Source of the DNA: Rhodocyclaceae bacterium
GTDB taxonomy: Bacteria > Pseudomonadota > Gammaproteobacteria > Burkholderiales > Rhodocyclaceae
Reading direction: 5' to 3'
Length of the DNA stretch: 64,000 bases
NCBI GenBank assembly: GCA_006218025.1
Contig: VBWA01000021.1
Span: forward strand, 34,008-98,007
Part shown: piece after piece, positions 140-46,073 of the stretch
Numbering within the stretch: position 1 is the stretch's first letter
Layout: each line of letters begins with the position of its first letter
Translations under genes and position numbers: made by a program
Notes under the pieces: generated by a model
Databases searched by the model: none
What the model was told of the DNA's origin: nothing
The model's input: the letters and a program-made list of their open reading frames with translations, nothing else

Positions 140-1143
140 GCCGGAACCTCGACGGGCACGCTCATCGTCGCCGTCGCGCCAGCGCCGACTTCCGAGCTCA
201 GCTCCAGGCTCGCCGTCGGCCCATAGAGCGCCGCGAGGCGGGCCCGGATGTTGGCGACGCCGATGCCCTCGCCTGGCATTTCGGCGAATCCGAGGCCATC
301 GTCGTTGACGGCAATCTGCAACCGGTCGCCCTGTCTCCGCGCCGATACGGTGACGCAGCCACCCGCGACCTTCGGCTCCAGCCCATGGCGAATCGCGTTT
401 TCCACCAGCGGCTGCAGCAGCATGGGCGGGAAGGCATGGGCCAGCAGCTCCGGAGCAATCTCGAAGGCGTAGGCCAGGCGGTCTCCCATGCGAATTTTCA
501 GGATCTCCAGGTATGCCGTCAGCAGCGCCACTTCGTCGGCCAGCGTGCCGCCCTCTGCGCGCGTGCGGGCCAGACTGGAACGCAGATAGCGAATCAGCGC
601 ATCCAGCAACCGGCCGGCCAGCTTCGGGTCAACCTCGATCAGCGCCGCGACGTTGGCCAGCGAATTGAACAGGAAGTGCGGCTCGATCTGCGCCTGGAGC
701 ATCTTGAGTTGGGCCTCGATGCTGCGCTTTTCGGCTTCGAGGCGGCGGTTCTCGCGCTGGTGCACCTCGGCAGCCAGCGCCACGTTGCGTTCGCGCAGGT
801 AGAAGAAGCCGCTGCCCATGACGCCCAGCGTGACACCCATGACAACCGCCTGCCAGGCGACCGCCGGCCACTCGACCCAACCGACGCCGCTCAGGCTGAC
901 GCCCAATAGTAGGCCGAACGCGACGCCCACCGGCACCGCCGCCAAGATCGCCAGCACGCGCCGCGGCCCCTCGGCGACAAACTGTCCAGCCAGGCTGCAG
1001 CTCACATAAATGGAGCAGCCGATGCACTGGGAAATCAGCAGATTGATGGCCCAGCCGGCGCCGACACCCAGCGCCGTGAGGAAGCCGGCGATCAGCGTGT
1101 TGCCGACGAGCGTGGCGAGCAGACGGCGCAAGTTGGAAGACAT
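136..1143 (-). CDS. LytS/AlgZ-type membrane sensor histidine kinase
   Basis: A 335-residue protein. The first ~130 residues form several membrane segments. They are followed by a short coiled linker (EVHQRENRRLEAEKRSIEAQ) and a His_kinase (PF06580) box, QIEPHFLFNSLANV, whose His is the phosphoacceptor. The C-terminal HATPase has LLQPLVENAIRHG (N box) and a DDGLGF motif. It would phosphorylate the response regulator encoded directly downstream with a 4-nt overlap. The last loop before the final strand reads EVGAGATAT and carries the dispersed repeat core described below, although GxG-rich sequence is also normal there. Confidence 0.92.
   Translation of the reverse strand: MSSNLRRLLATLVGNTLIAGFLTALGVGAGWAINLLISQCIGCSIYVSCSLAGQFVAEGPRRVLAILAAVPVGVAFGLLLGVSLSGVGWVEWPAVAWQAVVMGVTLGVMGSGFFYLRERNVALAAEVHQRENRRLEAEKRSIEAQLKMLQAQIEPHFLFNSLANVAALIEVDPKLAGRLLDALIRYLRSSLARTRAEGGTLADEVALLTAYLEILKIRMGDRLAYAFEIAPELLAHAFPPMLLQPLVENAIRHGLEPKVAGGCVTVSARRQGDRLQIAVNDDGLGFAEMPGEGIGVANIRARLAALYGPTASLELSSEVGAGATATMSVPVEVPA
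168..191 (-). repeat. Dispersed GTCGGCGCTGG repeat, copy in kinase gene
   Basis: Minus-strand copy, read in frame as E-V-G-A-G-A-T-A near the kinase C terminus. This is one of the weaker members, because a Gly-rich turn is expected here in HATPase domains and could resemble the repeat by chance. Confidence 0.45.
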
Positions 1144-1240
1144 GGCGCGATTATTCCACGCCGCAACCGCGCGTCGCCAGCCGTCTTGCGACAGGATGCC
1201 GGAACGGGAACATGAACTGCGTCCGGAACCGATGAACTGC

Positions 1241-1795
1241 TTACGGCAGCACCGGCTCCCGTCGCCGCGTGGCGCACAGACGCTGCATCACGGCCGGACG
1301 CGGGACGGCGACTTCCCCCTGCTCGAAAGCCACCACCGTCAGGCGCGGCCGCACCAAATCCAGCAGTTCGTCCGGGCGCAGCAGGAAGGCCGGATTGGAA
1401 GGCTTGCCGAAACGCTCGTTGCCGACCATGAAGGTTTCGTAGATCAACACCCCATCCATGTCCAGCGCATCGAGCAGCATCGGCAATAGCGGCCGAAACA
1501 GATAATTGGTGACCACGATCCCGTCAAACTTGCGCCCGCGATACGGCCAGGGTCCGCCTTCGAGGTCGGCTATCCGTGTCACAATGGCGGGGGCTTTGGC
1601 CCTGATTTCGGCCACGGCTTCGGCATCGCGATCAACCGCCTCCACCCGGTAACCGCGTTCCGCCAGCAAAAGGGAATGCCGGCCATGACCGCAGCCCAGA
1701 TCCAGCACCGCGCCGCCTGCCTTGATCAAGGGAAGGAAACGCTGCACCCACGGTGAGGTTATTCCGCTCATTTCGAATGCCATGTCGGGTATCAT
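1241..1795 (-). CDS. Class I SAM-dependent methyltransferase
   Basis: A 184-residue protein starting MIPDMAFEMSG. SAM motif I is VLDLGCGHGRHSLLLAERG, followed by the acidic VEAVDRD that binds the ribose. This is a compact Rossmann methyltransferase of the TehB/UbiE-like type. The substrate cannot be read from the sequence. The open frame continues upstream to 1924 but would overlap the divergent cyclase gene, so the ATG at 1795 (or the one at 1783) is preferred. Neither start has a clear ribosome-binding site. Confidence 0.8.
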   Translation of the reverse strand: MIPDMAFEMSGITSPWVQRFLPLIKAGGAVLDLGCGHGRHSLLLAERGYRVEAVDRDAEAVAEIRAKAPAIVTRIADLEGGPWPYRGRKFDGIVVTNYLFRPLLPMLLDALDMDGVLIYETFMVGNERFGKPSNPAFLLRPDELLDLVRPRLTVVAFEQGEVAVPRPAVMQRLCATRRREPVLP

Positions 1796-1844
1796 TTTGA
1801 ATCTAAACCATGCCGGAAGCCACTTCCCCGGGCCTTTATACCTG

Positions 1845-9028: not shown

Positions 9029-10567
9029 GTGATCGAGCTTTCATCCCTGCTGGCACACCACGCGCGCTACCGTCCGCATGCCACGGCGGTGGTGTTCGAC
9101 CGGCAGCGGCTCGATTACCGGGCCTTCAATGCCCGCGTCAATCGCATCGCGCATCTGCTGATCGCACTCGGCGTGAGGAAAACAGAGCGTGTCGCCACGC
9201 TGCTGCCCAACGCGCTGGAACTGCTGGAACTCTACTGGGGCTGCGCCCGGATCGGCGCCGTGGTGGTGCCGCTGTCGCCGCTATTGACCGGCGTCGGCTT
9301 GTCCAGCCTGATCAACGACGCAGGCGCCGTCTGCCTCGTCACGCAACGCAGCCTGCTGCCGGTGGTCGCCGCCGTATTGCCGGAACTCGCGACGCTGAAG
9401 CACTCGCGCGTGCTGCTGATCGATGGCGGAGAGCCGCCCTGGGGAGACTATGCCGCACTGGCGGCCGCTGCGCCGGAGACCGCGCCACCCCCGGCCGGCG
9501 TCACGGGCGACGACCTCTTCAACATCATGTACACCTCGGGCACCACCGGCCTGCCCAAGGGCATCATGCACAGCCACCGCGTGCGCGCCATGTACGCGCT
9601 GCTGCTGGGAGCTGCCTGGCGCATGACGCCGGAATCGGTGGTGCTGCATAGCGGTGCCATCGTCTTCAACGGCGCCTTCGTCACCCTGATGCCGGCCTTC
9701 CATCTCGGCGCTACCTACATCCTGCAGCGCCAGTTCGATGCGGCGGCGATGATCGCCGCCATCGCCGCGGAAAAGGTCACGCACATCATGCTGGTGCCGG
9801 CGCAGATCATCGCCCTGCTCGATTCACCGGCTTTCGATCCCGAAAAGCTGGCCTCCCTGCAGATGATCCTCTCGCTCGGCGCGCCGCTGGCCCAGCCGCG
9901 CAAGGACCAGCTGAACCAGTTGCTGCCCGGTCGCTTTTACGAACTCTACGGGCTGACCGAAGGCTTCCTCACCATTCTAGACAAGACCGAGGCCGCGCGC
10001 AAAGCCGGTTCGGTCGGCTGCCCGCCGCCCTTCAGCGAGGTGCGCATCGTCAATGAGGACGGCCGCGACCTGCCACCGGGACAAGCCGGCGAGATCGTCG
10101 GCCGCGGCCCCTTCGCCATGCAGGGCTACTGGGGCAAGCCGCAGCTCACGGCGGAAACCTTGCGCGACGGCTGGATCTACAGCGGCGACATCGGTTATCT
10201 CGACGACGAAGGCTATCTCTATCTGGTCGATCGCAAGAAGGACATGATCGATTCGGGCGGGGTCAAGGTCTATCCGCGCGACATCGAGGAAATCGCCGCG
10301 CGCCACCCGGCCGTTGCCGAGGTTGCCGTGTTCGGCATTCCGCACGAGACCTGGGGCGAAACCCCGCTCGCCGCCGTGGTGCTGAAAGTCGGCGCTGGTG
10401 CTACGGCGGAAGAACTTCGCGACTGGATCAACGAACGCGTCGCGGCGCGTTATCAGCGCGTCCAGGCTGTCGTCATCCTGTCCGCCTTCCCGCGCAATGC
10501 CGCCGGCAAAACGCTGAAGCGCGAGATGCGCGAACCTTACTGGGCGGGGCGCGCTAGCCGGATCTAG
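9029..10567 (+). CDS. AMP-forming acyl-CoA ligase (fatty-acid or related)
   Basis: A 512-residue ANL superfamily enzyme. P-loop YTSGTTGLPKG, ELYGLTEG, YSGDIGYLDDEGYLYLVDRKKDMI and a C-terminal catalytic Lys context (NAAGKTLKRE) are all present. It activates a carboxylic acid to the acyl-AMP and then the CoA thioester. The substrate cannot be decided from sequence; medium- or long-chain acids are the default guess. It starts 12 nt after the cyclase stop, so the two are probably co-transcribed. The loop KVGAGATAE (10385-10408) matches the dispersed repeat. Such enzymes are typical targets of Pat-type acetylation, and a Pat-like gene lies 3 kb upstream. Confidence 0.88.
   Translation: MIELSSLLAHHARYRPHATAVVFDRQRLDYRAFNARVNRIAHLLIALGVRKTERVATLLPNALELLELYWGCARIGAVVVPLSPLLTGVGLSSLINDAGAVCLVTQRSLLPVVAAVLPELATLKHSRVLLIDGGEPPWGDYAALAAAAPETAPPPAGVTGDDLFNIMYTSGTTGLPKGIMHSHRVRAMYALLLGAAWRMTPESVVLHSGAIVFNGAFVTLMPAFHLGATYILQRQFDAAAMIAAIAAEKVTHIMLVPAQIIALLDSPAFDPEKLASLQMILSLGAPLAQPRKDQLNQLLPGRFYELYGLTEGFLTILDKTEAARKAGSVGCPPPFSEVRIVNEDGRDLPPGQAGEIVGRGPFAMQGYWGKPQLTAETLRDGWIYSGDIGYLDDEGYLYLVDRKKDMIDSGGVKVYPRDIEEIAARHPAVAEVAVFGIPHETWGETPLAAVVLKVGAGATAEELRDWINERVAARYQRVQAVVILSAFPRNAAGKTLKREMREPYWAGRASRI
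10385..10408 (+). repeat. Dispersed GTCGGCGCTGG repeat, copy in acyl-CoA ligase gene
   Basis: Plus-strand copy in frame, encoding K-V-G-A-G-A-T-A in a surface turn before the C-terminal subdomain. The nucleotide match to the family core is strong. Relatives have a Gly-rich turn of equal length there, so chance or gene conversion cannot be separated. Confidence 0.5.
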
Positions 10568-11789
10568 CCGGAACCGGAACTGCCTTGCGGCGCATGGCGA
10601 GGACCGTCAGCACCGCCAGCACCTGCAACAGCGCTACGCCCGGCAGCACGCCATCACGACCGCCGGCATCCAGCAGCGCACCGAAGGCCAGCGGCCCCAT
10701 GGCCAGGCCGACGTCGATTCCGGAATAGACGAAACCATAGACGCGGCCGAAGGCCGGCGACGCATTGCCGCCTGCCAGCGCATCGGTGGCGACGCGGCGC
10801 ACCAGCAGGTCGCGCGACGGACCGGCGAGGCCCACACCGACGCCGATGCCGACCATCAGCGGAATCACGCCCCAGGCCGCCGGCAAACCGCTGGCCAGCA
10901 CGGCCGCGAAGATGGCCGCCGATATCATGGCCGTGCCGACCGCGCGCTCGTGCGATTGCACGCGTACGGCGATGAAACCTCCGGCCACCATGCCCGCCGC
11001 CGAACCCAGCAGGTAAGCGGTCAGCGCTCCCACTGCAGCGGCCGGCGAAAAGCCATAGATGCCGCCCAGCACCGGCGCCGAAAAATTCTGCAGGCCGCTG
11101 AAGGCCGCCGTGACCAGCAGAAAGAACAGGAAGGCCCGCCAGATCACGGGAACGCTGAGGAAACCGAAAGTTGCCCCCGCCGCCGTGCCGCCAGCGCCGA
11201 CTCTTGCGCGGTCATCGTCGAGCAGCGGCCGCGCCAGCTGCAGCGCGACAACCGAACACAAGGCCACCAGCGCCGCCGCAACGCCGGCGCCGCGCCAACC
11301 GGCCCAGGCCAGCGCCGTGCCGGAAATGGCCGCGCCAAGGGCCCAGCCGAGATTGCCCGACAGGCCGTGCACCGAAAACGCATGCCCGAGGCGCGAGGGC
11401 GATACCTTCTTGTTGAGCAGGGAGAAATCCGCCGGATGGAATACCGAATTGCCGCTGCCAGCGAGAGCCGCCGCCAGCAACAGCATCCAATAGTTGGCGG
11501 CGACCGAGAGCGCCACGCCCGAGGCTGCCAGCAGGCTGACTCCCGCCATCAACACGCGGCGCGCGCCGTAGCGATCGACAAGGATGCCGGCAAAGGCCTG
11601 GCCAAGGCCCGAGATGGCGAAAAACACCGTCATCAGGAAGCCGGCCTCGGTGTAGCTGAAACCGAAGGCCGGCATCAGCAGTGGAAACAGCGGCGGCAAC
11701 AAAAGATGGAACAGGTGCGAGGTGGCGTGGGCGACACCCACCAGTGCAATCACCACGGCATCGGCACGGACAGTCGTATTCGGGGTCAT
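10554..11789 (-). CDS. Major facilitator superfamily transporter
   Basis: A 411-residue protein with about 12 hydrophobic segments. The typical MFS loop after TM2 is seen as GILVDRYGARRVLM. The central cytoplasmic loop (DDDRARVGAGGTAAG) holds a copy of the dispersed repeat in frame. The cargo is unknown. The gene is convergent with the acyl-CoA ligase, and their last 14 nt overlap. It stands alone in transcription, with the next minus-strand gene upstream ending at 11871. Confidence 0.88.
   Translation of the reverse strand: MTPNTTVRADAVVIALVGVAHATSHLFHLLLPPLFPLLMPAFGFSYTEAGFLMTVFFAISGLGQAFAGILVDRYGARRVLMAGVSLLAASGVALSVAANYWMLLLAAALAGSGNSVFHPADFSLLNKKVSPSRLGHAFSVHGLSGNLGWALGAAISGTALAWAGWRGAGVAAALVALCSVVALQLARPLLDDDRARVGAGGTAAGATFGFLSVPVIWRAFLFFLLVTAAFSGLQNFSAPVLGGIYGFSPAAAVGALTAYLLGSAAGMVAGGFIAVRVQSHERAVGTAMISAAIFAAVLASGLPAAWGVIPLMVGIGVGVGLAGPSRDLLVRRVATDALAGGNASPAFGRVYGFVYSGIDVGLAMGPLAFGALLDAGGRDGVLPGVALLQVLAVLTVLAMRRKAVPVPARSG
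11181..11204 (-). repeat. Dispersed GTCGGCGCTGG repeat, copy in MFS gene
   Basis: Minus-strand copy, in frame, encoding R-V-G-A-G-G-T-A in the long cytoplasmic loop between the two six-helix halves, a position that tolerates insertions. Confidence 0.7.
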
Positions 11790-15731: not shown

Positions 15732-18286
<2,555 letters not shown>

Positions 18287-21526: not shown

Positions 21527-22036
21527 TTACTTGCCGCCTTCCCAGCGCCCGGCGGCCTGGTCGTCGCTCTCGCGGGCATCGACCCAGCGGCCGCCTTCCG
21601 GGGTTTCTTCCTTCTTCCAGAAGGGCGCCCGCGTCTTCAGATAGTCCATGATGAATTCGCAGGCGGCGAACGCCTCGCCGCGATGCGCCGACGAAACCGC
21701 GACGAAGACGATGCGATCGCCCGGCACCAACCTGCCGACGCGATGGATCACACGCACGCCGTAAATGTCCCAGCGCCCGCGCGCCTCCGTGACGATGGCT
21801 TCGAGGGCCTTCTCGGTCATGCCGGGATAGTGTTCGAGGGTCATGGCCTGCACTGCCGCCGTTACCTGCCCGCGAAGCGGATTTCCAGGTACGCAAAGCG
21901 AGTCAGCGCCGACTGTCTTGTCGGCCCGCACCAGGCCGACGAAACTGGCTACCGCCCCGACGTCGTCGCGTCCCGCCGACAGCGCGGCGATCTCGGCGCC
22001 CGCATCGAAATCGGCTTCCTGCACGCTGACCGACAT
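21527..22036 (-). CDS. moaE: Molybdopterin synthase large subunit, with an in-frame repeat insertion
   Basis: A 169-residue protein. MoaE core: VASFVGLVR, AMTLEHYPGMTEKALE, RVGRLVPGD, VAVSSAHRGEAFAAC and PFWKKE, including the catalytic Lys region. It transfers sulfur carried by MoaD to make molybdopterin. After VGLVR, where other MoaE proteins have only a few residues, it carries about 20 extra residues (GADSLCVPGNPLRGQVTAA). These are encoded by the long form of the dispersed repeat; the insertion keeps the frame. It starts 1 nt after the moaD stop. Confidence 0.93.
   Translation of the reverse strand: MSVSVQEADFDAGAEIAALSAGRDDVGAVASFVGLVRADKTVGADSLCVPGNPLRGQVTAAVQAMTLEHYPGMTEKALEAIVTEARGRWDIYGVRVIHRVGRLVPGDRIVFVAVSSAHRGEAFAACEFIMDYLKTRAPFWKKEETPEGGRWVDARESDDQAAGRWEGGK
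21857..21914 (-). repeat. Long form of the dispersed repeat, in moaE
   Basis: Minus-strand, 58 nt. It begins with the GTCGGCGCTG core half and ends with TAACGGCG. In between is a segment shared with the moeA copy, containing the hairpin CCGC-TTC-GCGG. It is translated as S-L-C-V-P-G-N-P-L-R-G-Q. Confidence 0.8.
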
Positions 22037-22299: not shown

Positions 22300-23619
22300 C
22301 TATAGCAGTTCGCAAAACGGCAGGAAACGCACCGTGTCGCCGCGCCGGATGGCTTGCCCCGGCGGATTGTCGATCAGCCCGTCGGCCCAGGTGCAGGACG
22401 TCAGCACGCCGGAACTCTGGTTGGCGAACAGTTCCAGCCCGCCTTGCGCATTGACGCGGGCGCGCAGAAACTCGCGGCGCGGATCGCCCTTGCAGTCGAA
22501 ATCGGCGCGCAGCGATTGTGCACGCGGCGTCACGCTCGATGTGCCCTGCGCCTTGAGGATGAAGGGCCGCACCAGCATGATGAAGGTGACGAAGCTGGAA
22601 ACGGGATTGCCCGGCAGGCCGATGAAGGCAGCAGCAGCCTCAGTTGCCGTCTCAGTTGCCGTTGCCTGCCCGCGAAGCGGAATTCCAGGCACGCAGAGCG
22701 CGCCAGCGCCGTCCGCAGGGGATACCGCCCCCGGCTGCGCCGGAGGCATAACTTCTCGCCGGACTGAACCGAACGCCAGCGGCTTGCCCGGCTTGATCGC
22801 GATCTTCCACAGGTCGAGCGAGCCCTCGGCCTCGACCGCGGGCTTGACGTGATCTTCCTCGCCCACCGAAACGCCGCCGCTGGTGAGGATCAGGTCATTG
22901 GCGGCCGCGGCCTCGCGCAAGGCGGTACGCGTGGCATCGCGCGAATCGGGCACGATGCCGAGGTCCGCCACCTCGCAGCCGAGCCCTTCGAGCAGCGCGC
23001 GCAGCGTGTAGCGGTTGGAGTTGTAGATGCCGCCCGGCTTGAGCGGCTCGCCGGGCATCGCCAGTTCGTCGCCGGTCGAAAACAGCGCGACCCGCAGGCG
23101 GCGAAACACCGTGAGCTGAGCCGCGCCGACCGATGCGGCGACGCCGACGTGGGCTGCCGACAAGCGCGTTCCGGCGGCCAACACCTCGGCTCCGGCCGCG
23201 ATGTCCTCTCCGCGACGGCGGATCCACTCGCCGGGGCGCGGCACATGATTCACCGTCACGCCGCCGTTATCCACCGCGCACAACTCCTGCATCACCACGG
23301 CGTCGGCACCGGCCGGCAGCGGCGCCCCGGTGAAAATCCGCGCCGCCGTGCCTGCAGCCAGCACATGGCCGACGCTGCCCGCCGGAATGCGCTGGCCCAC
23401 GACAAGCCGCGTACCGGCGGCGGGGACGTCGGCGCAGCGGACTGCGTAACCGTCCATCGAAGTGTTGTCCAGCGGCGGCACGTCGATGGTCGAATGCAGG
23501 CCTTGCGCCAGGATCCGCCCCGCCGCTGCGTGCGTCGGCACGGCCTGCGTCTCGCGCACCGGGTTGGCGCCGGCCAGCAGCCGCCCCAGGGCCTCTTCGA
23601 AATCAAGCATGTCTCGCAT
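22300..23619 (-). CDS. moeA: Molybdopterin molybdenumtransferase, with an in-frame repeat insertion
   Basis: A 439-residue protein. MoeA motifs: PPLDNTSMDGYAVR, GRPL-type FTGAPLPAGADAVV, LFSTGDEL, GGIYNSN, TSGGVSVGEEDHVK and GLPGNPVSSFV. It inserts molybdate into adenylated molybdopterin. Between KPGKPLAFG and AAFIGLPGNP, where homologues have about five residues, there are about 40 extra (residues ~284-326). These include GALCVPGIPLRGQATA, the same peptide type as in MoaE, and a 12-nt tandem duplication giving T-A-T-E. ATG 23619 overlaps the mobB stop by one base. Confidence 0.93.
   Translation of the reverse strand: MRDMLDFEEALGRLLAGANPVRETQAVPTHAAAGRILAQGLHSTIDVPPLDNTSMDGYAVRCADVPAAGTRLVVGQRIPAGSVGHVLAAGTAARIFTGAPLPAGADAVVMQELCAVDNGGVTVNHVPRPGEWIRRRGEDIAAGAEVLAAGTRLSAAHVGVAASVGAAQLTVFRRLRVALFSTGDELAMPGEPLKPGGIYNSNRYTLRALLEGLGCEVADLGIVPDSRDATRTALREAAAANDLILTSGGVSVGEEDHVKPAVEAEGSLDLWKIAIKPGKPLAFGSVRREVMPPAQPGAVSPADGAGALCVPGIPLRGQATATETATEAAAAFIGLPGNPVSSFVTFIMLVRPFILKAQGTSSVTPRAQSLRADFDCKGDPRREFLRARVNAQGGLELFANQSSGVLTSCTWADGLIDNPPGQAIRRGDTVRFLPFCELL
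22658..22713 (-). repeat. Long form of the dispersed repeat, in moeA
   Basis: Minus-strand copy. It runs from GACGGCGCTGG through the shared hairpin-bearing segment (TGCCTG...CAGGCA, inner CCGC-TTC-GCGG) to AACGGC. It is encoded as L-C-V-P-G-I-P-L-R-G-Q. Upstream (to about 22755) lies a further block, GCGGTATCCCC, also seen beside the copy at 42417. Confidence 0.8.
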
Positions 23620-24128: not shown

Positions 24129-25435
24129 GTCGAAGGCACCGTCAACACGGGAGCGAAGCCGCCGCCGGGCGTGCGAAAGTTGGTGGTCTGTCCCTGCCAC
24201 AACCGCGCCGCGATCAACTGCACATGCCCGGCATAAACGTAGTTGCGCAGATCGAGCTTGAGCTCTACCGGCGCCTCGTCCACCCGCAGCGTGCGCAAGG
24301 ACGGCGGCACCAGCGCCTGCGCGATGTAGTTGCCGGCCAGCACTTCGTCGAAGACGCGCTTGGTGATCTTGTCGCCGCGATACGCGGCCTTGGAGCCGTA
24401 ACCCGCCGCCGGCTTGAAGAAGAGTTGCTTGCGCCGCGCCCACAAGTCGTCGGCGTGACCGGGTACGACCAGCTCGGTGCGCGGAATCTTGTTCGCCAGC
24501 GTGGCGCGCGTCTCGGCATCGACGCCCCATCCGGCCAGCAGCGCGTCATCGCACAAGGCCACCAGGTTGCGCTTGTCGGCGTACAGGGCGTGCGCCTGCG
24601 GGTGCGGCGTGATCAGCGCCGCATCGGTGAGCCACGCTTCGCGCAACGCTGCATTGGCCGGCGCTTCCAGCGCGAAATCAGTGAGCCGGTTGTAGACCAG
24701 GTCGATGCGCGAACCGCCATGCCCACCGTACCAAAGCGCGCCGTCGCGCAGGGCCAGTTCCCGCGGATCGCAGATCACCGCCTCGATGCCGGCATTCTCG
24801 AACAGGCGCTGGAACAGCACGAACTCGGGATAGAGGTATTGCGTCAGCGGCGCTTCGTCGACGATTGCGATGCGTTTCGGCGTATCACCAGCGCCGACTT
24901 TCCCGGCAACCGCGGCAGCAAAGGCGCGCCACTCGGCACGGAACATTTCGAGGAACAGGTTCTCCGGCGTTTCGGAGCCGAGATCGCCGGGCAGCAGCGC
25001 TTCGACGTCATCGCAGCAGGCCTTCTGCGCGCGCGCCAGCAGGGCATTGAGCAGGCCGCCGCCAGCATTGGTATTGATCTCGATGAGTTGCGGCCCGGTA
25101 TTTCCTAAATGAAAGTCGTAGCCGAGGAAAACCCCGGGCGCCGCCGACCGATGCCGCGCACTCTCCGGCGCCCAGGCCAGCACATGCTCGCGATACGCGG
25201 GCAGCGCGACGACGCGCTCGACGGCGGCGACCAGGCGCGCCATGCGCTGCACGTGCTCGGCGCTGACGAAGGCCACCGAATCCGAGAACAAGTGCGGCCG
25301 CCCCGCCATCACCTCGGCGTGAAAGCCAGGGCTGACGCGTTCGAGCTCGGCCTCCAGCCCCGCGCGGTCGAGCGAAACGCACTGGCACCCGGCATTCAGC
25401 CGGTCGGCGAGTTCGATGCTGTAGTGGTTACTCAT
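24125..25435 (-). CDS. Uncharacterised ATP-grasp-like protein
   Basis: A 436-residue soluble protein. YDFHLGNTGPQLIEINTNAGG and FFKPAAGYGSKAAYRG resemble ATP-grasp or glutathionylspermidine-synthase-like carboxylate-amine ligases, but I do not recognise a characterised member. YADKRNLVALCDD precedes the putative nucleotide-binding strand. It overlaps dinG by 8 nt and mobB by 4 nt, so it is firmly inside the molybdenum-cofactor operon, although nothing ties it to that pathway chemically. A loop (AGKVGAGDTPKR) carries the dispersed repeat. Confidence 0.7.
   Translation of the reverse strand: MSNHYSIELADRLNAGCQCVSLDRAGLEAELERVSPGFHAEVMAGRPHLFSDSVAFVSAEHVQRMARLVAAVERVVALPAYREHVLAWAPESARHRSAAPGVFLGYDFHLGNTGPQLIEINTNAGGGLLNALLARAQKACCDDVEALLPGDLGSETPENLFLEMFRAEWRAFAAAVAGKVGAGDTPKRIAIVDEAPLTQYLYPEFVLFQRLFENAGIEAVICDPRELALRDGALWYGGHGGSRIDLVYNRLTDFALEAPANAALREAWLTDAALITPHPQAHALYADKRNLVALCDDALLAGWGVDAETRATLANKIPRTELVVPGHADDLWARRKQLFFKPAAGYGSKAAYRGDKITKRVFDEVLAGNYIAQALVPPSLRTLRVDEAPVELKLDLRNYVYAGHVQLIAARLWQGQTTNFRTPGGGFAPVLTVPST
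24878..24901 (-). repeat. Dispersed GTCGGCGCTGG repeat, copy in ATP-grasp-like gene
   Basis: Minus-strand copy in frame, encoding K-V-G-A-G-D-T-P between AAAVAG and RIAIVDEAP, that is, in a loop before a beta strand. Confidence 0.7.
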
Positions 25436-27447: not shown

Positions 27448-27491
27448 AAAGTCGGCGCCGGCAATACGGCGCCGGAGATGTCGCAAAGCAC
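27448..27491 (+). repeat. Dispersed repeat with 3' extension, upstream of dinG-like gene
   Basis: Core at 27448-27472, then GATGTCGCAAAGCAC at 27477-27491. The extension is shared only with the copy near 42417. It lies 50 nt upstream of the dinG-like ATG, on the opposite strand to that gene. Confidence 0.75.
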
Positions 27492-27640: not shown

Positions 27641-27681
27641 TTGACGTGCATCAATGCGGCCGCGCCGTTCGCGACTATCTT
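27641..27681 (+). promoter_or_regulatory. FNR/ANR-box promoter of the first glpAB operon
   Basis: TTGACGTGCATCAA (27641-27654) differs by one base from the FNR consensus TTGAT-N4-ATCAA. A -10 element TATCTT lies at 27676-27681. A start point near 27688-27689 puts the FNR box at about -41.5, the classical position for FNR class II activation. This fits anaerobic induction of glycerol-3-phosphate dehydrogenase. Confidence 0.7.
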
Positions 27682-27986
27682 GTCTGCACATACTCGCATG
27701 TCGGCAGGATTGCACCATCGCTGCCTTGCAACAGCATCGAAATCGGTCGAATTTTCGACGAAGGGTATCTGATGCGGAACAGTCTTCCAAACAAGTTTCC
27801 TGAAATCGGTCCCGGCACGCGTTCAGCCGTGATCAGGGCGGAGAATTGCCGCCTGGCGCGGCAAGCTGGCCCGGACCGCAATCTCCGTTGCCCCGATGCC
27901 GGAAGGTGGACGCGCATGATCGAATCCGCAAAGGCCGGATCGGGTTTCCCATCCTCGCAGGGTCGGGCGCGCGAAAAGAGGCGGCC
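27682..27986 (+). other. Long leader between the FNR promoter and glpA
   Basis: About 300 nt without a recognised gene. It contains a perfect hairpin TTGCCGC-CTGGC-GCGGCAA (27846-27864). A possible 72-codon upstream frame begins at ATG 27772 with AAGG ahead of it; its TGA overlaps the glpA TTG start (TTGA at 27987-27990), which would allow coupling. The frame has no recognisable product and may be chance. Confidence 0.35.
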
Positions 27987-30943: not shown

Positions 30944-31000
30944 TGTGAAACAACTTGTCCGGAGCGACTGGTGATAATCGAGCGAAGCGAGCCGACTGGT

Positions 31001-31046
31001 AACCCCCCGCGAGGGGCGAGGCGGGGTTTCGCACCGCACGCGGTGC
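31001..31046 (+). repeat. Hairpin-rich spacer between glpB and the Hdr-like genes
   Basis: AACCCC (31001-31006) pairs with GGGGTT (31023-31028), and CCCC-GCGA-GGGG (31005-31016) is an alternative. GCACCGC-AC-GCGGTGC (31031-31046) is a perfect second hairpin. No T run follows, so a REP-like mRNA-stability or partial-attenuation element is more likely than a terminator. Confidence 0.5.
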
Positions 31047-31103
31047 GCCGCCGCAGCCGGCTGGCTGTGCATGGCTCTCGCCGCCACGAGCGTTAAGAAA
31101 ACC

Positions 31104-32813: not shown

Positions 32814-33646
32814 AATACGCGCTCTTCCTCGGCTGCAAGATCCCGTCCCGGCTGCCGGCCTACGAATTGTCGACGCGCGCCGTGCTGCTGCGCCTGGGCG
32901 TCACTCTGGTCGATCTGGAGTTCAACTGCTGCGGCTATCCCGCCCGCAACGTCAGCCGCGAGGCCTTCGTGGTGGCCGCCGCCCGCAACCTGGCCATAGC
33001 CGAGCGCGCCGGCCTCGACGTTCTGACTCCCTGCACCTGCTGCTTCGGCAGCCTGCGGCACGCGATCAGCTTCCTGGAGGAAGACCCGGAACTGCGCTCG
33101 CGGGTATCGCAGGCGCTGGCCGTTGAGGGCATCGCCTGGTCGGGGAAGACGGAGGTCGAGCACCTGTTGCCGGTACTGGCCCGGACGATAGGCGTCGACG
33201 CGTTGGGCGCCGCGGTACGGGCCCCGCGCGCGGGCCTGCGTGTCGCCGCCCAGTACGGTTGCCACGCGTTGCGCCCGAGCAATGTCGCCCGCTTCGACAA
33301 CCCGTTGGCGCCAACCACCTTCGAGACCCTGATCCGCCTGACCGGTGCCACCCCGGTCGACTGGCCTCGGCAGTTGGACTGCTGCGGCGATCCGCTGCAC
33401 GAGTCCAACGCTCCGTTGTCGGAGCACATCGCGCGGGCCAAGATCGCCGATGCCAAAGCGTCCGGTGCCGAAGCGATGTGCACCGCGTGTCCCCACTGCC
33501 ACCTGCGCTTCGATTCGGCTCAGGCGGGTAGCCCCAAGCCGTCGATTCGCAGCCTGCTCTACACACAGCTCCTCGGACTGGCAATGGGCCTGGATGAGAA
33601 ATCCCTCGGGCTTGAGTGTCCGGAATCGCCAATTCGCGGAAGATAG
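32810..33646 (+). CDS. HdrB-like protein with two CCG domains
   Basis: A 278-residue protein beginning MKYALFLGCKIPSRLPAYE, as in heterodisulfide reductase subunit B. Two Cys-rich CCG modules: FNCCGYP with CTCCFGSL, and LDCCGDP with CTACPHCHLRF. These hold a non-cubane Fe-S cluster in HdrB. In methanogens HdrB reduces CoM-S-S-CoB. In bacteria such subunits occur in quinone-linked complexes. Here it completes a GlpAB-HdrC-HdrB-like set; the acceptor is unknown. Confidence 0.85.
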   Translation: MKYALFLGCKIPSRLPAYELSTRAVLLRLGVTLVDLEFNCCGYPARNVSREAFVVAAARNLAIAERAGLDVLTPCTCCFGSLRHAISFLEEDPELRSRVSQALAVEGIAWSGKTEVEHLLPVLARTIGVDALGAAVRAPRAGLRVAAQYGCHALRPSNVARFDNPLAPTTFETLIRLTGATPVDWPRQLDCCGDPLHESNAPLSEHIARAKIADAKASGAEAMCTACPHCHLRFDSAQAGSPKPSIRSLLYTQLLGLAMGLDEKSLGLECPESPIRGR

Positions 33647-33754
33647 GTCACCACGCCATCGAACCAGTCCCCGACGAACAAGGGAAATGAGGCAATCCCG
33701 TCGGGAGTTGTGGCACGCAGCCGGCATGTTGCGGCGCGCCGGCAGCGGACAGCC

Positions 33755-33859
33755 GAAGGCCTTGCCACCGCCGGCCTCGGCCACCGGCGCCATCTTGCCC
33801 GCGATCACCACTGCGATGCGCTGCGCCGTCTCCTCCGCCGCGGCCGTGGGCGAAAGTCG
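33755..33859 (-). pseudogene. Fragment of a DinG-like helicase gene
   Basis: The minus-strand reading gives AQRIAVVIAGKMAPVAEAGGGKAFG, a degraded form of AQRIAAAIAGNLALVTEAGTGTGKT from the intact gene at 25428-27398. The nucleotide match is long (TTGCCCGCGAT...GCGATGCGCTGCGCC...CCGTGGGCGAAAG). The Walker A is damaged and frames are mixed. It ends exactly where a dispersed repeat copy begins. Confidence 0.7.
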
Positions 33860-33877
33860 GCGCTGGCGGCACGGCGA
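33853..33877 (+). repeat. Dispersed GTCGGCGCTGG repeat, fused to the dinG fragment
   Basis: Core copy whose AAAG start is shared with the end of the dinG remnant. It lies 57 nt upstream of the DUF4160 gene, in the same orientation. Confidence 0.75.
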
Positions 33878-37630: not shown

Positions 37631-37654
37631 CGCCGTGTCGCCGGCGCCGACTTC
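37631..37654 (-). repeat. Dispersed GTCGGCGCTGG repeat, intergenic
   Basis: Minus-strand copy (GTCGGCGCCGG core variant), 52 nt upstream of the alpha/beta hydrolase start and on the opposite strand to it. Confidence 0.65.
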
Positions 37655-40301: not shown

Positions 40302-40325
40302 GAAGTCGGCGCTGACGGCACGGCG
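40302..40325 (+). repeat. Dispersed GTCGGCGCTGG repeat, intergenic
   Basis: Core copy with GCTGACGGC in the middle, between the end of the RelE-type toxin gene and the start of the lipoprotein gene, about 170 nt upstream of the latter and on the opposite strand. Confidence 0.7.
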
Positions 40326-40360
40326 GGCCAGCGCACTATGCAAGCCAGATTGCGCTTCGA

Positions 40361-40621
40361 CTAGTCCCGATAAACCTCGCGCCTGTGCCCGACCTTCACG
40401 ACTTCGACCACCACCTCCAGGTCGAGTATTTCGTAAAGAATCCGGTAATTCCCTTGCCGAATCCGATAGCACTCCTGGGCGGAAAGCTTTTCGCAGCCGA
40501 AGGGACGGGGATCGTCGCGCAGCGACTCGATCCGCTCCAGGATGCGGCGCAAGTCCACCTTCGGGATGTCCCGCAGGTCCTTTGCGACGGAGGTCTTGAA
40601 CCTCAGTTCATATCGAGCCAT
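40361..40621 (-). CDS. RelE/ParE-type toxin
   Basis: An 86-residue protein: YELRFKTSVAKDLRDIP, then CYRIRQGNYRILYEI and VVVEVVKVGHRREVYR. This is the RelE fold with the basic C-terminal residues used for mRNA cleavage on the ribosome. It overlaps the end of the antitoxin gene by 14 nt. Assignment to RelE rather than ParE rests on the tail R-x-x-V-Y and is moderate. Confidence 0.88.
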   Translation of the reverse strand: MARYELRFKTSVAKDLRDIPKVDLRRILERIESLRDDPRPFGCEKLSAQECYRIRQGNYRILYEILDLEVVVEVVKVGHRREVYRD

Positions 40622-40841
40622 CGGCTTTCAGCTTGGCCAGGAACTGTTCGTAACTCATGGTCTTTTCTTTTGCTCGGCCGGAAAACGCGGCCAGGTCTTC
40701 CTCGTCTTCCCGCAACGATGCCCGGACGGCGTCATTGACGATCTCGGACATCGAGCGGTGCGCGGTTGCCGCCTTGAGGCGCAGCGCCTGATGCAGCCCG
40801 GGTTCGAGGTACAGCGTGGAACGGATGGTTTGAGTGGTCAT
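40608..40841 (-). CDS. Antitoxin of the RelE-type pair
   Basis: A 77-residue protein: MTTQTIRSTLYLEPGLHQALRLKAATAHRSMSEIVNDAV is a ribbon-helix-helix domain. The C-terminal part (EQFLAKLKADGSI) is the toxin-binding arm. ATG 40841 has GGAG 8 nt upstream; the slightly longer frame from 40853 lacks one. It is likely to autorepress through the operator just upstream. Confidence 0.85.
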   Translation of the reverse strand: MTTQTIRSTLYLEPGLHQALRLKAATAHRSMSEIVNDAVRASLREDEEDLAAFSGRAKEKTMSYEQFLAKLKADGSI

Positions 40842-40853
40842 GAATATCTCCAA

Positions 40854-40878
40854 AACGTCGCAACGTTATGGCATCATA
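40854..40878 (-). promoter_or_regulatory. Toxin-antitoxin promoter/operator
   Basis: Inverted repeat AACGT-CGCA-ACGTT (40854-40867), just downstream of a minus-strand -10 TATGAT (40878-40873). The expected start point falls inside the palindrome, fitting autorepression. Confidence 0.55.
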
Positions 40879-40919
40879 GCACCCACTCTCCTTGCTGGAT
40901 AGATCGAACCGCTACGCGG

Positions 40920-42329
40920 CTACAGGTCGATTCTCTCGCCCATATGGGGCAGGTGCGGCACAGGCCAGCCGAGCTGATCATGGATCGCCAGGGCGAAGGC
41001 GGCCGAGGCCGCAGCTTCGCCATGCACGACATAGGCATGCTTCGGCGGTTTGTGGAAGCCGCGCAGCCAGGCTAGCAGCCCCGCCTGATCGGCATGCGCC
41101 GACAGGCCGCCCACGGTATGGATCGCGGCCCTGACCGGAACCGGCTTGCCGAAGATATTGACCAGGCGCGCGCCGTCGACCAGCCGGCGGCCTAGCGTGC
41201 CCGCGGCCTGGAAGCCGGTGATGAGGATGCTGCATTCGCTGCGGGGCAGGTTCTCGCGCAGGTGGTACTTGATGCGGCCGGCTTCGCACATGCCGCTGGC
41301 CGAGATGATGACCGCGCCGCTGCGAACCTCGTTCAGCGCGCGCGAGCCCTCGACATCGGCGACGAATTCCACTTTCATTTTCGCCGGATGCTGCTTCATC
41401 CAGGCGATCAGCTCGCGGGTCTCGCTGTCCATCAGCGCCGGATGCTCCCAGGTGATGTGCGTGGCGGCGGTGGCCATCGGCGAATCGATGTAGACCTTGA
41501 GCGGCGCCAGACGCTGGCGGCGCACCAGGTCGGCCAGGATGTAGATGATTTCCTGGGTGCGGCCGACGGCGAAGGCGGGCATGATCAGATTGCCATGGGT
41601 GTGGCGCGTGCGCTCGAAGGCGGCGACGATTTCGTCCTCGGTTTCCGCCAGGGGGCGGTGCAGGCGGTCGCCGTAGGTCGATTCGATGAACAGCACGTCG
41701 GCTTCGGGCACGACCTTTTCGGGGTCGTGCAGTACCGGCCGGCCGGACATGCCGATGTCGCCGGAAAAAACCATTTTGCGCGGCCTGCCCTCGCCGGTGA
41801 CCGTCACCTCCAGCCAGGAGGACCCGAGGATGTGGCCGGCGTCATGGAAGCTAACCGCCACTGCTTCAGCCGGGCGGATCAACTCCCGATAAGGTACCGG
41901 ACGCAGCAGCTTGAGCGACGCCTCGGCCTGGGCCACGGTGTAAAGCGGCGGCTGCAGGCTGCTGCTCTGGCCGCGCCGCCGCTGATGGCGCAGTTGCCAT
42001 TCCGATTCCTTCTCCTGGATGTGGGCGCTGTCGCGCAGCAGCACATGCAGCAGATCGATGGTCGCCGGCGTGGCATAGACGGGCCCGCGATAGCCGAGAA
42101 CCGACAGCATCGGCAGCAGACCCGAATGGTCGATGTGGGCATGCGTCAGCAGCACGAAGTCGATGGAGCGAACGTCGAAGCCGAACTTCAGGGCGTTGAG
42201 GTTTTTGCTGCGCGCCTCGCGCCCGCCCTGGAACATGCCGCAGTCGACCAGGAAACGCAGGTCGCCCGATTCGACCAAGGTGCATGAGCCGGTGACTTCT
42301 CCTGCTGCTCCGAAAAATCCGATGCGCAA
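40920..42329 (-). CDS. Beta-CASP metallo-beta-lactamase-fold RNase/hydrolase
   Basis: A 469-residue protein. Metal motif THAHIDHSG, later DAGHILGSS, FSGDIGMSG and the C-terminal GGLSAHADQ. The beta-CASP insert has ESTYGDR, PAFAVGRTQE and ISASGMCEAGR. This matches the RNA-processing/CPSF-like branch found widely in bacteria. It acts on RNA as an endo- or exonuclease; the substrate is unknown. It is divergent from the DUF1993 gene, with a dispersed repeat between them. Confidence 0.9.
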   Translation of the reverse strand: MRIGFFGAAGEVTGSCTLVESGDLRFLVDCGMFQGGREARSKNLNALKFGFDVRSIDFVLLTHAHIDHSGLLPMLSVLGYRGPVYATPATIDLLHVLLRDSAHIQEKESEWQLRHQRRRGQSSSLQPPLYTVAQAEASLKLLRPVPYRELIRPAEAVAVSFHDAGHILGSSWLEVTVTGEGRPRKMVFSGDIGMSGRPVLHDPEKVVPEADVLFIESTYGDRLHRPLAETEDEIVAAFERTRHTHGNLIMPAFAVGRTQEIIYILADLVRRQRLAPLKVYIDSPMATAATHITWEHPALMDSETRELIAWMKQHPAKMKVEFVADVEGSRALNEVRSGAVIISASGMCEAGRIKYHLRENLPRSECSILITGFQAAGTLGRRLVDGARLVNIFGKPVPVRAAIHTVGGLSAHADQAGLLAWLRGFHKPPKHAYVVHGEAAASAAFALAIHDQLGWPVPHLPHMGERIDL

Positions 42330-42390
42330 TTTGCGTTCCTCCCGTGGGGCTCATCATCGGCTGGAATCGGGCGGATTTCAATCCTGGTGG

Positions 42391-42458
42391 AAAGTTATGC
42401 GAAGCGGTATCCCCGGGGACGGCGCTGGTGGAACGGCGCGGAAGATGTCGCAAAGCAC
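42391..42458 (+). repeat. Extended dispersed repeat between divergent genes
   Basis: Starts with AAAGTTATGC and GCGGTATCCCC, both also present beside the moeA copy. The core follows (GGACGGCGCTGG, then GAACGGCGC at 42430-42438), then GATGTCGCAAAGCAC (42444-42458), shared with the copy at 27448. It therefore links three otherwise separate members of the family. Confidence 0.8.
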
Positions 42459-42516
42459 GGTCCGCCTCCGCACGGGATCTTCAATGGCAGAATGCATGAT
42501 TCACGGAGGCCCGATC

Positions 42517-43023
42517 ATGACCATCTCGATGTACCAAGCCAGCGCACCGCGCCTGGCCAACATGCTGCGCAATCTGGATGCCATCCTCGCCAAGGCGCAG
42601 GACCATGCGCCGGCGAAGAAGATCGATCCGACCGTTCTGCTCGGGGCCCGACTGTTCCCCGACATGCTGCCGCTGGTGAAACAGGTTCAGATCGCCACCG
42701 ACCACGCCAAGGGCTGCGTTGCCCGGCTGGCCGGCGTCGAGGTGCCCAAATTCGCGGATACCGAGCAGAGCTTCGAGGAACTCCGGGCGCGCATCGCCAG
42801 GATCATCACCTTCGTGGAATCGTTTTCCGCGGCACAGATCGACGGTTCCGAGGAGCGGGATATCGCGCTCATGGCGGGCGGAAAGGAAATGAGCTTCAAG
42901 GGCCTGCCCTACCTGCTCGGCTACGCCATGCCGAATTTCTATTTCCATCTGGTGACGGCATACAACATCCTGCGTCACAACGGCGTGGAAATCGGCAAGC
43001 GCGACTACATCGGAACGCCCTAG
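42517..43023 (+). CDS. DUF1993 protein
   Basis: A 168-residue protein starting MTISMYQASAPRLANMLRNL with GGAG ahead of ATG 42517. LFPDMLPLVKQVQIATDHAKGCVARLAG and the end PNFYFHLVTAYNILRHNGV are typical of DUF1993, a DinB-like helical family. The conserved His residues may bind metal. No reaction is known. Confidence 0.85.
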   Translation: MTISMYQASAPRLANMLRNLDAILAKAQDHAPAKKIDPTVLLGARLFPDMLPLVKQVQIATDHAKGCVARLAGVEVPKFADTEQSFEELRARIARIITFVESFSAAQIDGSEERDIALMAGGKEMSFKGLPYLLGYAMPNFYFHLVTAYNILRHNGVEIGKRDYIGTP

Positions 43024-43054
43024 GGGCTTCCTTCATCCCGGACGCCGCGACCCC

Positions 43055-43318
43055 ATGCGCTCGACCCGTGCCACCGCCGCCATCGCCCGGCTGAATGGGC
43101 GCAGCGAAGGCCATCACTACACGATGGCCCTGACCGGTAGCGGCCTGCTCATTCTGCGCGAGCGGGTTGCCGGCGCAGACCGCCCGCTTTCGGCAGCGCT
43201 TTCCCTGGACGAGTTCGTGCAACTCGTCGATTCGATGGGGCCGAAGAAGGAAGTCCGCATCACCAAAAGCGAGGCGGCCTTCATGAAGCAACTGGTCAAG
43301 AAGGACGGGGCGCCGTGA
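43055..43318 (+). CDS. Small hypothetical protein
   Basis: An 87-residue soluble protein (MRSTRATAAIARLNGRSEGHHY, LSAALSLDEFVQLVDSMG, ITKSEAAFMKQLVKKDG). It has normal codon use for the region and lies between the DUF1993 and aldo/keto reductase genes on the same strand. No family is recognised. No clear ribosome-binding site. Confidence 0.55.
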   Translation: MRSTRATAAIARLNGRSEGHHYTMALTGSGLLILRERVAGADRPLSAALSLDEFVQLVDSMGPKKEVRITKSEAAFMKQLVKKDGAP

Positions 43319-43369
43319 TGCCGGCGGGCGGGGCCCGGTGCCACGCTGAACCTTTCTGAGGAGAAGTCG

Positions 43370-44359
<990 letters not shown>

Positions 44360-44369
44360 CCTGCGGAAT

Positions 44370-44388
44370 CGCTCTCGTCATGAGAGCG
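44370..44388 (+). terminator. Weak hairpin after the aldo/keto reductase gene
   Basis: CGCTCTC-GTCAT-GAGAGCG, 10 nt after the stop. No T run follows, so termination is uncertain. Confidence 0.35.
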
Positions 44389-44491
44389 CGGGGTGCCGGC
44401 GCAAGGCCGATTCCACGGCTTCCAGCCCGATGTTCCCTCCTTGTGCCGTCCTTCTGCAGCGAACCGGCCGGAACGGCAAAACTGCGAACCC

Positions 44492-45940
44492 CTATCGTTC
44501 GTCCGGCGGCGTCCAGTGCGGGTAGTCGACCAGGCGAAAGACCCTTTCGCCGGGCCGCCGCGGCAGGATGATCTGGACGAAATGCGTGGTGTTGCGTTTG
44601 AGCCAGCGCCTGGTGGCGTCGCCCTCCAGATGTATCGGCACCATGCCCTGCGCGGACGGATTGTCCGGCGCGAAGTAACTGACGTTGGCGCCGGGCGCGT
44701 CGGCATACACCGACATGTAGAGCACCGGGTTGGCGCCCGCCGAAAACCTCGGGTAGTAGCCATCGACCAGATCGGTGCGGTCGAAATAGAGATTGCGCAG
44801 GGCCTCGTTCTGGCTGTTCTTCTTCACGTCCTCGAGGACATTGGCGTGCAGGTAGACATTGGGTGGGTCGTCCTCCCGGTCGCGGTTCGAGAAGAACTCG
44901 AGGAAGTAGTCGGGGACCGGCTTGCCGTGGTCATCGACGACATAGGCGTTGACCTGCATGTACTGGTGGAAGGACCCGGCGGTCGGGCTGTCCGGATCGG
45001 CCTTGGCGCGCTGCGCCGTGGCCTCGCTGATGTCGTTCCATTCCTTCAGGATGGCCCGATACGATTGCATTCCATCGCAGCCGAGCGCCCGCAGGATCAA
45101 CTGGCCGAGCTGCATTTTCTCGGCGTCGGTCTCGTTGAAGCCGTCGTCATTGGCGTCGTCGTCGCGCTCCGGATCGACGATGGAGCCGTGGGTGCGGGTC
45201 GGCAGCACGGCGAGCGGCACCTCGCATTCGAGCCGGCTTCCCCATGTCGTCATCATCTTGTCCGGATCGGTCTCGCGAAAATCGATGGTCACGCCGCGCG
45301 CGTTGAGGTTCGCGGCGCAGACCCTGACCGTGCCGTCGCTGCCGTCTTCGTTGGCGATCTGGCGCAGCAGCCCGCTGTAGCCGCGCGTGCCGACAATCAC
45401 GAAGGGCAGCACGCCATTCTCGCCGTAGTAGCTATGCGCATCGCCGCCGGGCGCGATCAGGACGTCGCGCTGAGCCAGTTCCCACTGGAAGGGGCTGGAC
45501 AGTTCGAGGTCGTTCAGCATCGAGGTTCCGGTATGGAAGCCGTGCTTGAGGCCCTTGACCAGGCGCCCGAGCATGCTCTTGCCCGTTGCCGCCAGCTTCG
45601 ATCCGAAGTTGGCCGGCGCCAGCATGACCAGGCGTTTGACCGGACATTCCCCCATTTTTCCGCGATAGCGGGTCGTCAGCCAGGCGCGCGCGACCAGGCC
45701 GCCCGTGCTGTGCACGATCATGTCGAATGGGGCCTGCAGTTCGCCGCTGAGGATTCGCTGCTCGATGACTTCCGCCATCCGGATCGCGACGTCCTGGACC
45801 CGAACGTCGTCTTCCATGGAAATGTAGTCGCCGAGCCAGAGCGTCTGTGCCTGGTAGTTATTCGCGGCGAGGAACCTGGCCAGCGGAAGGAAGGACTCGG
45901 AGGTGTCGCTCCAGCCATGAACGATCAATACCTGCGGCAT
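44492..45940 (-). CDS. Esterase/lipase-like alpha/beta hydrolase
   Basis: A 482-residue protein. The N terminus MPQVLIVHGWSDTSESFLPLA carries the HGW oxyanion loop. The nucleophile is Ser in MIVHSTGGLVAR. APANFGSKLA is a lipase-like continuation. The C-terminal ~200 residues form a beta-rich domain without recognised motifs and with many Asp/Asn (PERDDDANDDGFNETDAEK), possibly Ca-binding. No signal peptide is seen. The substrate is unknown. Confidence 0.78.
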   Translation of the reverse strand: MPQVLIVHGWSDTSESFLPLARFLAANNYQAQTLWLGDYISMEDDVRVQDVAIRMAEVIEQRILSGELQAPFDMIVHSTGGLVARAWLTTRYRGKMGECPVKRLVMLAPANFGSKLAATGKSMLGRLVKGLKHGFHTGTSMLNDLELSSPFQWELAQRDVLIAPGGDAHSYYGENGVLPFVIVGTRGYSGLLRQIANEDGSDGTVRVCAANLNARGVTIDFRETDPDKMMTTWGSRLECEVPLAVLPTRTHGSIVDPERDDDANDDGFNETDAEKMQLGQLILRALGCDGMQSYRAILKEWNDISEATAQRAKADPDSPTAGSFHQYMQVNAYVVDDHGKPVPDYFLEFFSNRDREDDPPNVYLHANVLEDVKKNSQNEALRNLYFDRTDLVDGYYPRFSAGANPVLYMSVYADAPGANVSYFAPDNPSAQGMVPIHLEGDATRRWLKRNTTHFVQIILPRRPGERVFRLVDYPHWTPPDER

Positions 45941-46048
45941 GATCAGATCCTTTTCCAGTAGCTTGAGCTTTGCATGTTAGGCAGTTTATGACGTCGTAGT
46001 CAATGCCCCCGACATGCCCCAACATCTTGCAGTGCAGCATCCGCTTTG

Positions 46049-46073
46049 AAAGTCGGCGCTGGTGGTACGGCGA
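46049..46073 (+). repeat. Dispersed GTCGGCGCTGG repeat, intergenic
   Basis: The best match to the family consensus: AAAGTCGGCGCTGG, then TGGTACGGCG. It is 109 nt upstream of the lipase-like gene, on the opposite strand. It is the last copy in the window. Confidence 0.8.

Follow-up and report, generated by a model that had tools for sequence, protein, structure and literature searches.

A dispersed, bipartite 25-bp repeat in Rhodocyclaceae as a candidate DNA uptake sequence

Background

The closest described counterparts of the element reported here are the tags by which two bacterial families mark their own DNA for natural transformation; an excerpt of PMC12616744 gives self-DNA discrimination by short motifs of 9-12 nt as known only in Neisseriaceae and Pasteurellaceae. 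The DNA uptake sequences (DUS) of Neisseriaceae, as described in an excerpt of PMC3630211, have a short motif with a CTG core, occur in very many copies within and between genes (n~1900 in Neisseria meningitidis), form lineage dialects, lie at permissive positions and could slowly degenerate once specificity is lost. The uptake signal sequences (USS) of the gammaproteobacterial family Pasteurellaceae are likewise genome-wide self-tags, with a 9-nt core (AAGTGCGGT or ACAAGCGGT) and the subtypes Hin and Apl (excerpts of PMC12616744 and PMC3630211). Here we describe a dispersed repeat, RAAAGTCGGCGCTGGCGRNACGGCGA, in a 64,000-nt stretch of a Rhodocyclaceae bacterium (GCA_006218025.1, contig VBWA01000021.1, positions 34,008 to 98,007; this whole stretch is 'the window' below) and in its relatives. 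On the sequence evidence we favor the reading that this repeat is a DNA uptake sequence, that is, a lineage-specific self-tag for a natural-transformation receptor. A little less firmly, we lean towards regarding it as a third, independently evolved self-DNA uptake system, belonging to a clade of Rhodocyclaceae-type Betaproteobacteria (Sulfuritalea relatives), with a 25-bp bipartite tag, at least four dialects, one dialect switch seen in place within a genus and one species, G016, whose tag would be decaying.

Two further classes of dispersed repeat invite comparison. Rickettsia palindromic elements are inserted palindromes, and they share with the present repeat an in-frame presence within genes at tolerant positions; the short motif here differs in being weakly structured and in having replaced existing sequence at the best-resolved sites. 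The GTAG/CGTC-tagged repetitive extragenic palindromic sequences (REPs) and their associated tyrosine transposases (RAYTs), as described in an excerpt of PMC3733652, resemble it in dispersal and in enrichment between genes, and some copies here have hairpin forms; unlike REPs, our short form has no clear stem-loop and no consistent link to a Y1 transposase.

Compared with DUS, which it resembles in copy abundance within and between genes, dialects, permissive positions and expected slow decay, the motif is much longer (25 positions including a loose spacer, about 20 of them fixed), reaches at most 760 places in the genomes counted, occurs in another family and is known here from sequence alone. 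It has no evident sequence relation to USS. In the one literature collection searched, no report turned up of uptake sequences in Rhodocyclales or Rhodocyclaceae, or of uptake sequences overrepresented in competent Betaproteobacteria; the matches listed for the core letters or their complement, and those for Sulfuritalea together with repeats, look unrelated by title and the start of the abstract.

Results

The repeat and its copies in the window

The initial annotation had reported a core, GTCGGCGCTGG, followed by ACGGCG at about 14 places in the window, and the repeat is present at all 14 of them. The window contains 23 occurrences of the 11-nt core with at most one mismatch, where 5.3 are expected; none of 100 shuffles reaches this count. 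In the window's genome (G000; 4.44 Mb in 141 contigs) the 24-mer AAAGTCGGCGCTGGNNNNACGGCG with up to three mismatches is found at 760 places, compared with one for the reversed-pattern control. The dispersed repeat is real and far larger than first noted, with hundreds of copies on both strands, within and between genes, as is the case for uptake sequences, and a density of about one copy per 6 kb.

Alignment of the copies in 463 kb of G000 and 400 kb of the closed relative G002 defines a motif of 25 positions, about 20 of them fixed, with abrupt ends and little conservation beyond them. Its layout is bipartite, AAAGTCGGCG and ACGGCGA flanking a loose spacer. Strand bias is absent (44 plus and 38 minus copies, intermixed, in the 400 kb of G002), and the consensus 25-mer contains no stop codon in any of the six frames. 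Two short copies folded as single strands gave a weak, imperfect stem (z -1.24 and -2.20).

Eleven of the 14 window copies are 24-mers within three mismatches of the pattern, and the other three (21857, 22657 and 42391) are longer because a hairpin segment is present at one or both of two fixed points, a type A segment between AAAGT and CGGCG or a type B segment directly before ACGGCG. The type A mark, GGTATCCCC, falls inside the motif at all seven of its occurrences in the 463 kb of G000, and in the window it stands at the fixed point within the motif at 42391-42438 and 22657-22756. An orthologous site can have the short form in one species and a long form in another (L051/L088, L133/G000, G000/G002). 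The type B hairpin (GCCTGGAA.TCCGCTT.GCGGGCAGGCA) is also found without the 25-mer (L300, L317; in G016, partly in tandem, and in G027), and it therefore looks like a second, palindromic element landing in the motif.

The copies in the window are as follows (coordinates, strand, description); gene calls are from our own scoring of open reading frames (ORFs), made without annotation.

169..192, minus: short copy (GAAGTCGGCGCTGGCGCGACGGCG) in the 3' end region of the gene for a sensor histidine kinase; aligns without gaps with G002 and with G010, where it is diverged
10385..10408, plus: short copy in a gene of the AMP-binding (acyl-CoA ligase-like) kind, read KVGAGATA; probably gained in place
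11181..11204, minus: short copy in a major facilitator superfamily (MFS) transporter gene, read RVGAGGTA; ungapped in seven species
16740..16763, minus: short copy in a linker of a ClpB gene, read KVGAGGTA
21857..21915, minus: long form in MoaE, with a type B hairpin between GTCGGCGCTG and ACGGCG
22657..22756, minus: longest form, in MoeA, with one hairpin of type A and one of type B; inserted in frame when compared with G002, G010, G016 and G022
24878..24901, minus: short copy in the gene of an uncharacterised 436-aa protein, read KVGAGDTP; length of the site varies between species
27448..27471, plus: short copy antisense to a helicase gene, in its start region; left border of a 6.4 kb segment
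33853..33876, plus: short copy, intergenic by ORF scoring; right border of the 6.4 kb segment
34496..34519, plus: short copy, intergenic by ORF scoring; a copy is present in G022 too
37631..37654, minus: short copy, intergenic in the initial annotation, within an ORF of the other strand by ORF scoring
40302..40325, plus: short copy, intergenic by ORF scoring; followed after about 26 nt by a break of synteny in G025
42391..42438, plus: long form, type A (AAAGT, then TATGCGAAGCGGTATCCCCGGGGA, then CGGCGCTGGTGGAACGGCG)
46049..46072, plus: short copy, intergenic by ORF scoring

Distribution and dialects

With up to two mismatches allowed, the motif occurs in all 31 genomes of the genus that were examined, at 32 to 661 places, and the same count yields 0-2 places in six genomes from six other genera of the family and 0-4 places in 24 genomes from 24 other genera of the order. 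A more general pattern, AAAGTC-N12-ACGGCGA with one mismatch allowed, was run over 297 genomes of the family: 10 of its 68 genera have at least one genome with at least 95 places, and the remaining genera have at most 21 in any genome. Genomes of one carrier genus can differ widely in their counts, for instance from 17 to 494 places in g34 and from 9 to 409 in g43, the latter being undercounted by this pattern because its usual ending is ACGGCA.

Lineages spell the motif differently: AAAGTCAGTC...ACGGCG in g34, GGTGCTGG mixed with GGCGCTGG in g32, and ACGGCA(C) in g43. Inside the window's own genus, GTT replaces GTC in three of the 31 species (G001, G015 and G027), in which exact AAAGTTGGCGCTG-N5-ACGGCG occurs 76, 82 and 78 times, respectively, compared with 0-3 times in the other 28 genomes. 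Within the region syntenic with the window, GTT is found at all five carrier sites in G001 and at four of five in G027 (the MFS site is spelled GAGTT in both), and the plain short copies at the ligase, MFS and ClpB sites have GTC in G000, G002, G010 and G022. Because T and C alternate in this way at shared sites, copies at the same places are spelled by lineage; genera with other dialects likewise spell the ClpB-site copy in their own way at the same place. Dialects are seen, then, both between genera and inside one genus.

Origin of the copies within genes

The initial annotation had likened the repeat to Rickettsia palindromic elements, spreading by insertion without breaking frames. This is mostly unsupported by comparison with orthologues: at four of the seven genic sites in the window (ligase, MFS, ClpB and histidine kinase) the motif aligns without gaps between species that match it well and species that match it poorly, so that the gene is not lengthened as it would be by an inserted palindrome; MoeA is a case of true insertion. 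The ligase site at 10385 has equal length in seven species. Where the window has LKVGAGATAEELRDW, orthologues in six of six repeat-poor genomes of the family (2 to 19 places each by the general pattern) have LQANASVDAEELRDW, LRDGAATSASELRSW and similar sequences of the same length. A carrier, G091, has AKVGAGDTAMQIQEW (AKVGAGDTA) at the same position in a distant homologue of the ligase, and this copy is likely to be an independent gain.

In the ClpB linker, the carrier G010 has EKVGAGDTAKNKLLR; among the 29 other loci aligned, G082 has the equally long EKSGDGKKAANKLLR, and G000 and G002 have four extra codons just upstream of the motif. The motif thus occupies a linker whose length varies slightly, and its eight codons were not an addition. 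The ungapped comparison at the MFS and histidine kinase sites lies within the genus, and a 3-nt gap adjoins the MFS copy in G010. The initial annotation had named identical residues at these places in orthologues of distant genera as evidence against it, and this is half the case: repeat-poor relatives have a similar length and partly similar residues there, but the motif itself is lacking. When the comparison was widened, 95 of 394 copies yielded 140 orthologous pairs; among these pairs, 95 have the copy present, seven are diverged and ungapped, four lack it without a gap and three lack it with a gap. The overall interpretation in the initial annotation is partly supported, and a caution follows for readings of its kind, namely that short in-frame protein repeats need not be insertions.

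The MoaE site of relatives is occupied by a short form or by a type A form, or has no copy. The orthologue of the 24878 gene in G010 has another palindrome (GTAGGAGCGAGCTTGCTCGCGA...) at the same gene position.

Reading frames, placement and segment borders

Placement was evaluated in a sample of 0.92 Mb of G000 and G002 with 161 classified copies (one partial overlap was dropped in G000). That all genic copies are read in one frame, as had been proposed, is right for the seven genic copies on which the proposal was based (V/D-G-A), and it does not extend to the two-genome sample, in which all six frames are used: of 108 genic copies, 51 are in the V-G-A-G frame, 24 in one antisense frame, which from the consensus would read A-V-[P/S]-P-A-P-T, and 33 in the other four. 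Two window copies first called intergenic, 27448 and 37631, lie in ORFs by our scoring, in antisense frames, and the ORF at 27448 has a start that is possibly over-extended. The more general description, a frame-compatible dispersed short repeat enriched between genes, was borne out by the stop-free consensus and by the intergenic share of copies (33 of 80 in G000 and 20 of 81 in G002, against 11.9% of positions).

Among the 53 intergenic copies, 50 have genes on both sides. The copies in the window had suggested a position upstream of start codons, which does not hold in general: 16 of the 50 have a start codon within 200 nt, compared with 1,113 of 2,752 random positions (p=0.25). The enrichment lies between convergent genes (20 of 50 copies against 630 of 2,752 random positions; p=0.007). 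On one 299 kb contig the copies are spaced more evenly than random positions would be (coefficient of variation 0.70, p=0.004); on a 100 kb contig piece, C3, the coefficient is 1.02.

The copies had also been placed at module borders, and one border is clear. The direct copies at 27448 and 33853 enclose a 6.4 kb segment (27448-33876) with flavin adenine dinucleotide (FAD) and 4Fe-4S (iron-sulfur) oxidoreductase genes, and this segment is absent from G010, G020 and G022, in which one copy is left and the flanks are continuous; recombination at the copies is a possible explanation. In G025 the blocks around 40352-44361 are reordered. One or two cases make no rule.

The last 18 kb of the window (46073-64000) has no copy within three mismatches and is possibly newer DNA. 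It contains an ATP-binding cassette (ABC) transporter locus with a solute-binding protein. At 47059-50967 lies a 1,302-aa ORF whose solute-binding domain is confined to residues 904-1232; for its long N-terminal part, Pfam gives no match at E 1e-5.

Upkeep and decay

Mismatch histograms over 23 fixed positions were compared with a control. In G000, 89 sites have five or fewer mismatches (control 0) and 10 have six (control 10); for G002 the corresponding counts are 93 (control 1) and 11 (control 13). The near-equality with the control at six mismatches means that these genomes have almost no decaying tail. G016, of the same genus, is different: in 455 kb, a sample that includes contigs chosen for matches to long-form pieces or to the window, there are no copies with zero or one mismatch, 26 with two to five (control 1) and 18 with six (control 4), a decay tail, and its copies are decaying relics. 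In G000 and G002 something maintains the sharp motif, and we infer that this upkeep has stopped in G016. G063 and G132 have dialects other than that of the pattern, so their histograms do not bear comparison; the samples of G001, G021 and G027 are small.

Discussion

The motif replaces rather than adds letters at the best-resolved gene sites, and it is therefore likely to be an uptake tag; the many copies on both strands, the dialects, the gain at near-matches, the permissive placement and the decay are together the reason for proposing a third uptake-signal system. Under this proposal, fragments with a good match would be taken up and recombined more often, better-matching alleles would as a result replace worse-matching ones, and the motif would accumulate at places that tolerate a near-match, such as linkers, loops and the ends of convergent genes. 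Were the receptor to change its specificity, the copies would be drawn towards a new dialect; were it to lose specificity, they would decay, as those of G016 do. The candidate reader is a protein that would probably be a type IV minor pilin.

Transformation machinery is present, as expected of a carrier of uptake sequences: among competence genes, ComEC and the ComP_DUS-type pilin were searched for, and they are found in 44 and 43 of the 44 genomes examined, respectively. Since both occur in carriers and non-carriers alike, they neither prove nor single out a receptor, and co-distribution was set aside as a route to it.

A number of observations weigh against the uptake reading. The machinery does not follow the motif: genomes without the repeat also have ComEC and ComP_DUS-type pilins, including those with the highest pilin scores; the sole genome lacking such a pilin, G098, has about 105 places; and neither ComEC nor the one pilin Pfam family yielded a receptor co-varying with the motif among the 44 genomes. 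With about 20 fixed positions of 25 the motif exceeds the 9-12 nt of described uptake motifs, and at about one copy per 6 kb it is less dense than DUS. Replacement is not universal, as three of the seven genic window sites change length: MoeA (22657) is a true in-frame insertion of about 120 nt in G000, with shorter inserts in G027 and G001; MoaE varies in length, partly via its hairpins; and 24878 varies between species. In ClpB, the linker of most repeat-poor genera falls one codon short of that in the shorter carriers, and in a few it is one codon longer. The rest of the 140 pairs comprise 22 that are unclear and nine with an insert inside the element. Poor matches within the genus may be decayed copies rather than the state before gain, which leaves an outside reference for the ligase and ClpB sites only. 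The even spacing is not significant in G002 (p=0.11). Finally, the uptake model gives no account of the long hairpin forms.

The strongest rival is that the motif is the site of a chromosomal DNA-binding protein (for nucleoid structure, segregation, replication or global regulation), selected site by site, with dialects that track the protein; we regard this as unlikely, yet worth serious thought. Sharp upkeep, dialects and lineage-specific decay follow from it equally well, and the bipartite layout resembles a two-part protein site. It fits poorly with the placement of the copies, 108 of the 161 sampled lying inside genes in all six frames, and it would have residues of enzymes altered at hundreds of places, which makes selection at each site hard to believe. 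Strand bias is absent as well; the segregation signals of such kind that we know of are either strand-biased or few. Strand-biased signals such as Chi or FtsK-orienting polar sequences (KOPS) were considered separately and rejected, plus and minus copies being mixed in either sign of GC skew in the closed genome G002; an apparent strand bias in G002 among the matches listed was not borne out in the 400 kb sample.

Less probable again, to the point of being doubtful, is a mobile palindromic element of the Rickettsia or REP type that inserts in frame, for which the hairpin-bearing copies would be complete and the 25-mer a minimal or trimmed form. The MoeA insert, missing from G002, G010, G016 and G022, is what such an element would leave behind; the alternation of short and long forms at orthologous sites, and the many places in four genomes of the genus matched by pieces of the long forms, point the same way. 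The same-length motif at four of seven genic window sites, two of them with an outside reference, does not, and an element of this kind would explain neither why resident copies change dialect nor why G000 and G002 lack a decay tail. Mobilization of the REP/RAYT type was rejected because the short form folds weakly and because the Y1_Tnp transposase was not found in eight copy-rich genomes (G018, G125, G256, G177, G117, G153, G091 and G166, one of them only 85% complete). The hairpin as a conserved feature was rejected on the same weak fold and on the dialects, since the ACGGCAC and AAAGTCAGTC spellings would, as deduced from their letters, break the weak stem of the short form. Both points also speak against the mobile element, as does the occurrence of type B hairpins apart from the 25-mer. 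An RNA element was likewise discarded (an Rfam scan of the window at gathering thresholds gave no match, and no tRNA was found).

The weakest rival, very improbable in our judgment, is that inert old repeats are homogenized by ectopic gene conversion, which spreads dialects without function: concerted change across many loci is indeed what conversion produces, but 25 bp without flanking homology is short for RecA-dependent exchange, and both the gain at native near-matches and the enrichment at convergent gene ends are left unexplained.

In viral contigs (L360-L439), at least 120 stretches match the motif exactly; copies in host flanks and in phage are undistinguished there, and these matches were not used as evidence.

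Conclusion

The repeat bears on how uptake tags begin and change. If the uptake reading is true, Rhodocyclaceae would be the third bacterial family with such tags. Within one group of environmental, non-model bacteria, carriers can be set beside near-carriers, and lineages that switched dialect beside a species with decaying copies. The group would allow receptor pilins to be compared against dialects, and would give a genetic handle, in the choice of which DNA to feed, for making Sulfuritalea relatives transformable.

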